From: Semisulcospira habei
Lineage: Eukaryota > Mollusca > Gastropoda > Semisulcospiridae
NCBI GenBank assembly: GCA_036245525.1
Contig: BTPG01000005.1
Coordinates: forward strand, 130,364,320-130,428,319
Direction of reading: 5' to 3'
Length of the DNA: 64,000 bases
This document shows, piece after piece, positions 5,317 through 54,347 of the stretch (position 1 is its first letter; every line of letters starts with the position of its first letter). The notes below the pieces were generated by a model, which saw only the letters and a list, made by a program, of their open reading frames with translations, was not told the origin of the DNA and made no database searches. A program made the translations under genes and the position numbers.

Positions 5317-5532
5317 TTCAAACACATTCAGCCCCAGGACCGAAATTCCCAAATGTTGAGGTTGTCTTCTGAAGGACTGTATTACAATTCTAGAGACAGA
5401 TCGAACATGATAGTTCAAGGGTGGTGCCAGAATAGATTGGCGCCTATGGGCGCCAATCTATTCTGGCACCACCCTTGAACTATCATGCTCGATCCATGTC
5501 TTGCTGTGGTGTTTCGGGGCTGAATGAGTTAA
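5317..5532. mobile_element. Family A MITE (GGTGG subfamily)
   Basis: Left end TTCAAACACATTCAGCCCC (degraded TTAA), right end GGGGCTGAATGAGTTAA. Core hairpin 5395-5500. Both arms carry ATTGGCGCC / GGCGCCAAT where most copies have CTTGGCGCC, a change present symmetrically. Confidence 0.9.
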
Positions 5533-5883
5533 ATATGTTGTCTGTGTATGGGTTTATGTGCGTTTATTGTAGAATTCACATTTACATATCCAATAGTTTT
5601 ATTCATTACAAAACTTCCCAGCACATGGTTTCATCATGAGTGGAACAATTTTACTCCTCGCACCAAATGACTAAATCAGATTGCTTTAAGTTCAGTCATT
5701 CAAGAGAGACAGATCGACTAACGCTACACTGCTCTCAGCAAGTGTAAGTTACGCTGATCAAACGCTGCAATTAAGATATCATCTGGGAATATATCCCGTG
5801 CGCAGAAGCAGAAGTGACAGTGGCGTAGGAACGCAACAGGAGCGGGCGGGGAAAGGGGGAACAAAACCCTAGGATTCTGATTA

Positions 5884-5953
5884 TAATGTTGACTAACGAC
5901 CCCCCCCCCCACACACACCCCCCCATCCCCCCCACACCCCCATCCCCCCCCCT
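5884..5953. repeat. C-rich low-complexity tract
   Basis: Runs of C interrupted by ACACACA and AT; strand-asymmetric, possibly able to form unusual structures. Confidence 0.85.
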
Positions 5954-6149
5954 AACCAACTATCTTACTACGCAACTGCGGAGTGAACACGACTAGACGT
6001 GCTGGACTGAAGATCTGTTTGAAATGGGCTAACCTGACTGCATAACTATATTGAGTAACCTACATACTCCGCTATGAATTTCAGTGTCGCAAACATTGCC
6101 AAGTCCTCTCACTAGTAATTTGGCTTGTGAAATTTTGTGAGGCGTCTAG

Positions 6150-6310
6150 AACATGTTTACATTATGAGAGATCACGTGCCATTAAAGGCCACCTAGGTGC
6201 CTGCAGCCATGCACCTACATGGTGGTCGTCAGTGACAGGTGACACTGTCTGGCCTTTAAAGACTCCTATCTGAGAGAGCACCAGTATTTTAAGACCACTT
6301 TTTGTCTTGC
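6150..6310. repeat. Family E repeat, copy 2
   Basis: Shares TTATGAGAGATCAC, CATTAAAGGCCACCTAGGTG and the tail GAGAGAGCACCAGTATTTTA with the copy at 4062, but the palindrome is rearranged around CTGCAGCCATGCACCTACAT. Confidence 0.7.
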
Positions 6311-6439
6311 ACAACTGATGCTTGCTCAAAACAGGTTCTGCTGTACCAGCTGCGGGAGACGTATCGGCCAAGATATAATTCAAGGGCAGTGCCAGATTTG
6401 CGTGGCACCTTTATTGTTGTTGGTGTCCGCATACTTGCA

Positions 6440-6517
6440 TTAACTCCCAATGTGCATTCAGCCACCGGTACTATTTACAGTAGGCTACCGGTGGCTGCAT
6501 GCTCAAAGGGGGTCTAA
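6440..6517. mobile_element. Family G mini-MITE
   Basis: TTAACTCCC... to ...GGGGGTCTAA with palindromic arms TGCATTCAGCCACCGGTA and TACCGGTGGCTGCATGC. The right TTAA has become CTAA. Confidence 0.7.
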
Positions 6518-6814
6518 CGCGTATGCTTACCATTGCAAAAGGTGGGGAAGATTGAAGGTATTGAATATATCATCAGCTGGATTCGCCGACAACCGGAAGC
6601 CCTGTGTCGTCAAACTTCTTTCCTCTACAAAAGACACAGATTAACATCAGCCACTGCAACCTCAAGGGTCATGAGACTCTGTGTTTGCCCCCTGCTGACC
6701 GAGATTGGCTTCAGTTGTGTCTTTACTGAAACTAAAGGTGTTATACGGAGTTTAAAAGGTACGGCTGTGTACACATGCTTTCAGTCTCTCTCACACGACC
6801 AAGGCAGCCCCAAA
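6518..6814. other. No recognisable feature
   Basis: A 157-codon open frame runs from 6533 into the neighbouring palindrome. It has no domain or bias that I recognise and I do not call it a gene. Confidence 0.4.
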
Positions 6815-6905
6815 GTGAGCAAAAGGTTATCGGGCCGACGTCATCCGCCGTTGGTCGTGCGCGGACCTACGGCGGATGACGTCGGCCCGATAACCTTTTG
6901 CTTAC
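6815..6905. repeat. Family C GC-rich palindrome
   Basis: Arms GAGCAAAAGGTTATCGGGCC (6817 on) and the complementary GGCCCGATAACCTTTTGCT, with CGACGTCATCCGCCGTTGG inside. Nearly perfect over about 40 bp per arm. Confidence 0.9.
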
Positions 6906-7158
6906 CGGGCCCGCGGCCTACAGCACCACTGTGTCTAAGGTCAACCGGTATTAGCGCCAAAATGCAAACACAGGCACACACGTCGTCCCGCGTCCCTAGC
7001 AACTAGCCTGACAACGGGGGCGATAAAGATCTCGCTAACACAGGCGCATAATAGGACGATCGCGATATACTGCGTTCCTGGTGTCTCAGCTATTTCGCTT
7101 GGTAATAAATTACTCGCAGTGTTCGCAATCCGGCAGTACAGTTTTAGCCACGTTTGCG

Positions 7159-7257
7159 TATAGGCATAGATTCTCATGAGCCGGACCTCCGTTTGCAAGA
7201 GGCGTAGATTCTCATGAGATCCTGCAGCTGCCGGGGCTCATGAAGATCTGTGCCTTT
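7159..7257. repeat. Family B hairpin plus partial second copy
   Basis: Hairpin 7195-7257 (GCAAGAGGCGTAGATTCTCA...). A partial left arm TAGGCATAGATTCTCATGAG sits just upstream at about 7161-7180, a local duplication of the arm. Confidence 0.75.
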
Positions 7258-52150: not shown

Positions 52151-52266
52151 AAGATTTTTCATTGAGAATTAACGCATCTCAACACCACGCCCTGTGAAGG
52201 CAAAAGACAGTAAGTCCGTTTTTGTTAAAAGACAGATTTTCATTTTAACACAATGGAAATCTTGCT

Positions 52267-52325
52267 CCCCCCCCCACCCCCCGCACCCCCCCCCAAAAAA
52301 AAAAAAAAAAAGAAAAAAAAAAAGA
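52267..52325. repeat. C-rich then A-rich tract
   Basis: C runs broken by A and G, followed by about 40 nt of nearly pure A. Confidence 0.9.
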
Positions 52326-52559
52326 CTAACTACCTTTTGCATTCACAGGCAGCATCTCTGTTCTAGAACTGTTTGCATCAGATGATGTTGAAATGTCCTG
52401 TATGAGTCTCCTGTGTCAGTCTCCTGTGTTTGTCTTACACTGTGCGCCGTTTGTCTTCAGCTTGAATGTGTGTGTTTAGTGACAGCGTGCGATTCGGGTT
52501 CAGTTCGCAGTGCATTGAGCCGATTCATAGAATTGGGTACAACGAATACCTAATCATCG
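52326..52559. other. No recognisable feature
   Basis: Plain sequence. Confidence 0.4.
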
Positions 52560-52690
52560 GTATGATGATGATGATGATGATGAAGCCGATGTCGTCATCA
52601 TCATCATAACACGGTGATGATGACGATTATTATTATTATTATTATTATTATTATTATTATTATTATTATATTATTATTATTATTATTAAT
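52560..52690. repeat. (GAT)n palindrome and (ATT)n microsatellite
   Basis: ATGATGATGATGATGATGA and TCATCATCATCA face each other around AGCCGATGTCG, followed by (ATT)n at 52628-52687. Confidence 0.9.
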
Positions 52691-52856
52691 CTTAGAGATA
52701 AATTACATCTTTTCAAGAACTGCTGAAATAAGTTTGTGCAAGCAGACACCGAGTTCATGAATTACGGCTTAGATGCCAAACAGTTCATTTGCAATGCTAA
52801 CTAAAACATCCGAAGAGCAATTGAAGGCCCACTAGCGCCGTAACTGTTTAACGATA

Positions 52857-52992
52857 GAAAGAAGTACCCAACGGAGAAAGAAACACGCTTAGAAAAGAGG
52901 GTGTTGTACCCGTCTTTTCTAAGCGTGTTTCTTTCTCCGTTGGGTACTTCTTTGCATATTACACGCTTGGCAGTCACCTTTTTGGTCTGGAT
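52857..52992. mobile_element. Family F element, short copy, 12-bp target duplication
   Basis: TGTTTAACGATA at 52845-52856 and 52993-53004. Arms AAGAAGTACCCAACGGAGAA / AAGAAACACGCTTAGAAAAG pair with the right side around GGGTGTTGTACCC. Right unpaired extension ends CACCTTTTTGGTCTGGATT, the mirror of the left extension at 18957. Confidence 0.9.
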
Positions 52993-53004
52993 TGTTTAAC
53001 GATA

Positions 53005-53445
53005 CACTTCTGTAACAGATGGTTTCAAAACGCTACACACAGGTCTAGCTATGGTTCACTTAGACACAGGACAATCCAGTTGAGCACAGGTTGTCTTTAT
53101 ATCAAGTAACCTGACAATGACTCCACTCCATTTTATAAATACAACGCTATAAGTACGAGAAACAGCTAAAAATAGATTGACACGCTAAAGGCAGAATAAA
53201 AAAGTGCGATTACGCTTGTGCTTTTTGCTGCAGGTCCCAACTGCCAAAGAAGCTCAATAGGTGTGTCGACAAGGCACAACAAACACAAACAGTGATGCGA
53301 TTTGTATTCATTGTTACGCGTAATGGTACTTTAAACTGAGTTTGTTGATATATTCACTTGGTGTTACACTAAATGGGAACCAGTGTGTACCACTGACTGC
53401 AGCTCTGAACGATATGTGCACCTTAAACATTCTCTATAAATATCT
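53005..53445. other. No recognisable feature
   Basis: Plain sequence. Confidence 0.4.
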
Positions 53446-53825
53446 TTAACCCATTCCCCGCCACTATACTTACATTTTTGTTTCTGAAATCTTTGTTCAT
53501 TGAACGACCAAAAGCCAAAACCGCCCCCCCTCCCATTCCACCCAAAACAAACAAACAAAACACCCCCCCGAAAAAAAACAAAAACAACAAAACAAAACAA
53601 AAAAAAAACCCAAACAAACAAACAAACAAACAAACAAACAAACAAACAAACAAACAAACAAACAAACAAACAAACAAACAAACAAACAAAAACAAACATG
53701 GATTCAAATTGGTCTCAGCAAGAGGCATAGATCCTCATGAGCCCACGCAGTCGCATTAGCGCATGAGGATCTATGTCTATTGCAGTTGGATCGTGTTCAC
53801 TTTTTCTTGGCAGTGAATGTGTTAA
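53446..53825. mobile_element. Family B MITE enlarged by an (AAAC)n expansion
   Basis: TTAACCCATTCCCCGCCACT to CTTGGCAGTGAATGTGTTAA. Hairpin 53718-53782, partly decayed (TTGCAGTTGG side). The extra length is a CA/AAAC-rich insert at 53520-53697, with (AAAC)n from about 53611. Confidence 0.85.
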
Positions 53826-54117
53826 TCCCTTTTCAGCTGATACAACCATTGAACTATCTAGGCCAGTCACGCCGCCACTTTCGTTATTTTGCGCTGAAAA
53901 AAAAAAGGAACTATGAGGACACCTGGTTTGTTTTGCGGACCAATTTACGCGAGCGCCGCTAGTTAATAATGCATTTATGCATCGCCGACTCGTTACAGCT
54001 CGCCTCAGGCTGTCTAAGTGGTATTTGCTGCTAAAGTATTTGAAGGAAAAAAACTAAAACAAAGGGACATTTTTTTTGTTGTTGTAATTAACACGCAGAT
54101 AAAAATGGAAATTACGC
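53826..54117. other. No recognisable feature
   Basis: Plain sequence. Confidence 0.4.
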
Positions 54118-54347
54118 TTAATCCGTTCACTGCCAGTGACCACGAATTGCGCTGACACGAATGCACGCTGTCCGATATTCGCGTGAACAACACAGACGAA
54201 GTGAATGTGGTCAAATTAGACATAAAGAACACAGGACTAACAAGAGACACAAATCCCCATGAGCCCCCGCGAATGCGGGGGCTCATGAGGATTTATGTCT
54301 CTTGCAGCTGATTAAATTTCGCACTGCCCCGGCAGTCAAGGGGTTAA
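54118..54347. mobile_element. Family B MITE, complete
   Basis: TTAATCCGTTCACTGCCAGT to CCCGGCAGTCAAGGGGTTAA, 230 bp. Hairpin 54240-54305. Both arms have AAGAGACA and AAATCC variants. Confidence 0.9.

Follow-up and report, generated by a model that had tools for sequence, protein, structure and literature searches.

Loop inversion and paired arm changes in the hairpins of TTAA-bounded miniature elements from a Semisulcospira habei genome

The question raised by the stretch of DNA analysed here, 64,000 nucleotides of contig BTPG01000005.1 of the gastropod Semisulcospira habei (the window, G000:C5:130364320-130428319, in a genome of 1.98 Gb), is how the two arms of the hairpins in its miniature inverted-repeat transposable elements (MITEs) come to change together. 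A first-pass annotation of the window had named seven copies in which the same private substitution appeared in both arms, and had offered as explanations homogenisation of the arms within a copy, a self-primed or hairpin intermediate, selection on the paired form and, as a simpler rival, symmetric subfamilies. In the present analysis, all of which is based on one genome assembly, the coupling of the arms is found to be real, yet a minority process, and inversion of the hairpin loop, which is absent from the annotation's finding, is a stronger sign of exchange between the arms than the paired changes. The best explanation, at a probability of about 0.58, is template switching between the hairpin arms, with loop flips that are saturated by insertion and with copying of arm from arm at a low rate.

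Each element, about 215 bp long and bounded by TTAA with short terminal inverted repeats (TIRs), has its hairpin off-centre, nearer to one end, and three consensus sequences (A1, A2 and B) were derived from the copies collected. The A1 consensus has perfect 57-bp arms around a 2-bp loop, and the consensus arms of A2 and B are 48 bp and 32 bp long; pair numbers start with idx0 next to the loop and increase towards the base of the hairpin. Exact matches to a 31-bp segment of the A1 body number 2812 in the genome, from which it follows that the young A1 subfamily consists of thousands of copies, and the elements are thus short, dispersed and of high copy number, as MITEs are. The hallmark of piggyBac-type MITEs is a TTAA target duplication with TIRs that start with CCC or CCY. 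Read from the consensus rather than from empty sites, the ends are TTAACCC...GGGTTAA in A1 and TTAACTC...GAGTTAA in A2, so that the start of A2 is not CCC, and those of the B consensus are TTAACCCC...GGGGTTAA. By their TTAA ends, their TIRs beginning with CCC or CTC, their length and their abundance, the elements look like piggyBac-type MITEs with a near-perfect internal palindrome, although they differ from such MITEs, as these are generally described, in having a long hairpin besides the short TIRs.

The young A1 set comprised 85 copies, of which 41 were taken either from the window itself or from loci retrieved, for the most part, near matches to its copy 29458, and the other 44 were the first 44 of the 2812 matches of a body-pattern search that was blind to the arms, all of them on C1. 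The 74 copies with at least 40 readable pairs were scored and 11 were left out; the orientation of the loop was set by alignment of the body, the alignment margin being no less than 101 for the body-picked 44 and no less than 40 for the remaining 41. Among the 74, the loop reads TC in 40 copies and GA, the reverse complement, in 25, the remainder being TG (2), TT (2), CC, GC and CA (1 each) and unread (2), so that the single-step intermediates between the two common states are represented once by GC and never by TA. Copies with a perfect left arm, counted genome-wide, divide into 106 with TC and 92 with GA (P 0.36 against equality). Reverse-complement pairs of loops are also found in 34 older A1 copies (TC 10 and GA 5, GT 6 and AC 4) and in 38 B copies (AGTT 11 and AACT 5, GACT 3 and AGTC 2).

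Orientation of the loop has no detectable relation to kinship: nearest neighbours agree in orientation with a concordance of 0.538 against 0.519 after shuffling, and 1821 of 5000 shuffles were as high. In the control, where the pair of the marker itself was left out of the distance, kinship was recovered for the markers C45 and idx55 (0 of 5000 shuffles each) and weakly for T47 (187 of 5000), the P value of T47 rising from 0.001 to 0.037 when its own site was removed and the signal of C45 holding. Lineage markers that lie at least 34 bases from the loop, moreover, mostly keep their side. An orientation that does not follow kinship, combined with outer markers that keep their side, implies that the centre of the hairpin inverts in place, and does so repeatedly. 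Four copies that carry an unpaired change at idx34 on the right and T47 on the left, 29458 among them, have the loops GA, TC, GA and TC, so that the flip lies inside idx34 if the four are of common descent. The loops of these elements, being exact reverse complements that lie between inverted repeats and recur homoplasiously, show the pattern by which hairpin-loop microinversions are recognised.

An exact inversion of this kind would also be yielded by recombination at the palindrome or by repair of a break there, whether by cruciform extrusion and resolution or by microhomology-mediated break-induced replication, with the paired changes as by-products, and break-induced replication is what the available portion of one report proposes for human-chimpanzee microinversions between inverted repeats (PMC8755829; here and below, statements about cited papers refer to the portions of them that are available). 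The loop of these elements, however, is merely 2 bp long, and one mirrored insertion was the sole coupled indel in an indel scan that was not aimed at repair scars. Break repair is accordingly given a low probability, and we infer that template switching is the chemistry, in preference to cruciform resolution and to break-induced replication.

The paired changes have to be separated from the inheritance of paired variants before they can be read as coupling. When the sampled copies of each family are taken together, complementary doubles (changes in both members of a pair that match one another) exceed the column expectation in A1 (67 against 16.0), A2 (52 against 26.6) and B (56 against 19.2), but these counts, in which a few copies are counted twice, include the subfamilies, and much of the excess is subfamily structure. 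Over all pairs of the 74 young A1 copies there are 30 complementary doubles, where permutation within groups predicts 6.3 (maximum 15 in 1000 permutations), or 25 against 4.8 without CpG sites. The strict count was confined to 51 non-CpG, non-lineage pairs, with the lineage-variable pairs idx12, idx40, idx45 and idx47 set aside as ambiguous; doubles of A3 and T4, which were rejected as evidence of coupling, lie in the CpG of GGCGCC and for that reason are best read as independent decay. Single changes number 211 in the strict set, complementary doubles 10 and non-complementary doubles 4, and the 10 complementary doubles compare with 1.9 when the right arms are shuffled (maximum 9 in 2000) and with 1.4 in an offset control, in which coincidences of the same type are counted between positions that do not pair. 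Changes in one arm thus match the complement of the partner arm above chance, as in quasipalindrome or template-switch mutation. Homogenisation of the arms within a copy is supported, but at a low rate, since three raw estimates put the coupled fraction of changed pairs at 4.5%, 4.2% and 3.4%, that is, at 3-5% before chance is subtracted. Transitions outnumber transversions by 8:2 among the doubles and by 121:90 among the singles, a difference that is not significant (P 0.20).

One double that was followed through the genome is the T19 change of copy 29458. An 18-mer containing T19 together with C12 has 30 matches in the genome, of which 2 are the arms of 29458 and 28 are single arms of other copies, so that 29458 is the sole copy in the genome with T19 on a C12 arm in both arms; the pattern misses doubles that have a further change inside the 18-mer or that carry T19 on a T12 arm, and among the 74 copies the latter state occurs once, single-armed, in L084. 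In the 20 of the 28 single-arm copies that were fetched, the change lies on the left in 9, on the right in 10 and is undecided in 1, and a matching change in the partner arm was found in none of the 15 that were readable.

The proposal that symmetric subfamilies alone are responsible, all paired variants descending from symmetric founders with no coupling at the level of the copy, describes part of the data correctly. C45 is doubled in 11 of the 74 copies, most of which have body variants in common, and for most copies with C45 or with G12 and T40 the nearest relatives carry the same pair and share body variants; several of the named examples, 21410 included, are alike in this. It nevertheless leaves the T19 double of 29458, which has no second genome copy on that arm background, and the ten doubles that remain in the strict set after the lineage sites are removed; the T47 and G51 groups mix unpaired and doubled copies; and the origin of the founders' own symmetry is left unexplained. 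As a complete account it is improbable. (At idx12, a hypervariable non-CpG pair of A1, the C, G and mixed states are scattered across several lineages.)

The unpaired markers bear on a further group of explanations. T47 is confined to the left arm in 12 copies and to the right arm in 2, and a further 4 copies have it in both; 6 copies have G51 in the right arm alone and 1 has it doubled; and the idx55 change is restricted to the right arm in 8 copies, 7 belonging to the beta lineage, and to the left arm in 1, with no doubled copy. Taken together, T47 and G51 are doubled in 5 of 25 copies, compared with about 0.7 expected from the unpaired rate. These changes are unpaired yet inherited, which means that founders with unpaired arms multiplied, and a compulsory restoration of symmetry at birth is therefore excluded. 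The suggestion that each transposition passes through a self-primed hairpin, so that the arms of every new copy are identical from birth, would account for the perfect consensus arms and for the near-equal loop orientations even in copies with a perfect left arm, but it is refuted as an obligate mechanism by unpaired changes that are common to 6 to 12 copies each, namely G51, idx55 and T47, and is very unlikely, although such a hairpin may form occasionally. Still less credible is an artefact of assembly or polishing that copied bases between arms; the arms are indeed nearly identical and the copies are known from the assembly and not from raw reads, but 211 unpaired changes survive, and unpaired markers are found repeated from one independent locus to another.

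Selection enters in two forms. The annotation's suggestion of selection on the paired form, if this is to act in resident copies, is hard to reconcile with 211 unpaired as against 10 paired non-CpG changes. Selection on the hairpin of the source copy, as a binding site, a transposition intermediate or an RNA, such that symmetric copies transpose better and residents decay freely, fits the comparison of the A1 and A2 consensus arms, which differ over the inner 47 pairs by four paired changes and by no unpaired ones, and also the B-type copies (for example L015:85 and window 25562), in which the arms are near the consensus while the bodies, judged by eye, are far more diverged. It explains neither the doubles at the level of the copy nor the flip of the loop, and the groups with unpaired T47, G51 or idx55 multiplied all the same, so that its odds are poor.

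Under template switching, the two observations would be outcomes of one process. A DNA polymerase that is copying the palindrome could jump between the arms. A switch followed by passage across the loop and a switch back would invert the centre in place and flip the loop, whereas a switch over a stretch of one arm only would write a change into the other arm and so produce a paired "private" change; in-place inversion of the centre with occasional copying of arms is the outcome expected of template switching at a palindrome (PMC8794818, PMC3820800). Flips would be frequent enough to have randomised the orientation of the loop by insertion, and copying of arms would account for a few percent of changed pairs. 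Switching would not be obligate and would seldom span the whole arm, since markers at least 34 bases out mostly keep their side.

Several observations weigh against template switching in this form. The fraction of GA loops in successive thirds by age is 0.48, 0.24 and 0.43, and in copies with a perfect left arm it is 0.46; there is no rise with age, and the trend does not support ongoing flipping in resident copies. Copies with private doubles are not older than the rest of the 74, their mean number of singles being 2.89 against 2.85 and the divergence of their bodies 3.9% against 5.7%. Non-complementary doubles in the strict set are also above expectation (4 against 2.0), and two T47 copies carry the marker on the right only. 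Among the first 100 listed of 3101 variant arms at idx16 there were 90 single arms, 4 complementary doubles and 1 non-complementary pair, and this proportion of 4 in 5, against 43% by letter frequencies, is not significant alone; three of the four complementary doubles are T and may represent a lineage. Most private doubles, finally, were checked in the 74 copies only, from one individual of one species.

The flipped fraction that is not larger in older copies, together with private-double copies that are not older, suggests, if weakly, that the events occurred mostly before or during transposition and not during residence, although flips could also saturate quickly in resident copies. An alternative, which we consider unlikely, is that the transposition cycle itself, for example through gap repair at the donor site, randomises the orientation of the centre, so that the inner hairpin is a coin toss in each new copy and low-rate copying of arms is a side product. 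Duplicates of one insertion with differing arms were sought by clustering of flanks, without result, the clusters being swamped by overlaps and neighbouring MITEs; L058 and L059 (C4:79284510 and C4:79720280, 436 kb apart) have identical arm states and near-identical bodies and are probably a duplication of one insertion.

Minute hairpin-loop inversions in chloroplast DNA were reportedly described by Kelchner and Wendel in 1996. The class of mechanism is already known. In chloroplasts, segments between inverted repeats flip recurrently, even within species (PMC2903610); the recurrent flip is shared with the MITEs, but the chloroplast cases are single loci in an organelle and the MITEs a nuclear repeat family. 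Quasipalindrome mutation by template switching, in which an imperfect inverted repeat is perfected by copying arm from arm, has been described in yeast (PMC3820800) and Escherichia coli (PMC7202029), and one arm is copied from the other there as in the MITEs, although the yeast events concern a reporter gene and short arms and the MITEs have 57-bp arms in thousands of dispersed natural copies within one genome. Monttinen and Loytynoja (2022; PMC8794818) argue that template switching creates and maintains RNA hairpins, and they take loop inversion as a sign of switching between strands; paired stem changes and loop inversion are common to both systems, but by their account complete loop inversion is very rare and the evidence for maintenance of stems circumstantial, and their RNA genes are under selection, whereas the MITEs are repeats with about equal orientations. 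In animal nuclear genomes, 59 definite human-chimpanzee microinversions between inverted repeats (PMC8755829) are likewise exact and in place, but span 17-33 nt, whereas the MITEs are a repeat family in which one 2-bp loop flips recurrently, and the hotspots of microinversion in bird nuclear genomes are, in the available portion of that report, not tied to stem-loops (PMC3123225). No report of recurrent loop inversion or of paired private changes in MITE hairpins was found in the open-access literature, among the titles and abstract openings of the matches listed.

The paired motifs that the annotation described were all present in the window, in the copy named and in both arms (Table 1), but the reading of all seven as private events had to be rejected, several of the variants being common to other copies. 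Private status held genome-wide for T19 of 29458 on its arm background, the C12 pair being common to other copies (doubled in 3 of the 74), and within the sample for 5317, with the only double of its type among 57 readable A2 rows, and for 26686. The last change is mirrored in both arms as described; it is, however, a one-base insertion rather than a substitution, and the only mirrored indel in a scan of 76 A1, 49 A2 and 39 B copies that left the 44 body-picked copies outside. The pair in 21410 is doubled in 5 of 60 A2 rows, its relatives having the same body variants by eye, and G12 and T40 of 51938 occur together with body variants of the beta lineage. Among the B rows, the pair in 13113 appears as a double in 12 of 66 that are readable, and that in 28617, probably not private either, does so in 3 of 67 and is present in one arm only in 19. 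A few copies enter these row counts twice.

Table 1. Window coordinates of the hairpins of the seven named copies and of their paired changes.
Copy	Feature	Positions	Strand	Paired change and remarks
29458	A1-young hairpin, 57-bp arms	29486..29601	+	2-bp loop 29543-29544, TC orientation; C12 pair 29530/29557 (hand-derived)
29458	G>T pair at idx19	29523..29564	+	T 29523, A 29564 (hand-derived from motif starts)
5317	A2 hairpin	5392..5501	-	C>A pair (5436/5457)
26686	B hairpin	26728..26795	+	Mirrored one-base insertion (T 26753 / A 26770)
21410	A2 hairpin	21451..21542	+	A22, common to a subfamily
51938	A1 hairpin	52008..52123	-	G12 and T40 pairs (beta lineage)
13113	B hairpin	13156..13221	+	C>T pair at idx16 (T16)
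28617	B hairpin	28617..28682	+	C>T pair at idx23 (T23)

Other repeats were noted in passing. Two perfect A1 hairpins lie on the same strand 2.7 kb apart (C7:35520508 and C7:35523248), and the copy L019:9528 has in its left arm a 10-base insertion that repeats arm sequence and has no mirror in the right arm. Within the window, hairpins that by their starting sequences look unlike those of A1, A2 and B are found at 4116-4205, 6818-6902, 11861-11955, 14104-14170, 22215-22290, 51190-51278, 52858-52953 and 63256-63348, and a cluster of inverted repeat arms of 76-81 nt, 75-81% complementary and belonging to another repeat, occupies 60097-62187.

Whether paired changes in stems arise by two successive mutations under selection or by a single template-switch event is a matter of dispute. 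Covariation in hairpin repeats is, as a caution, not in itself evidence of a functional RNA. Thousands of near-identical, dispersed hairpins make the rates of arm copying and of loop inversion measurable from one genome, and the MITEs of S. habei thereby provide a natural test bed for an error of DNA copying that is hard to observe.

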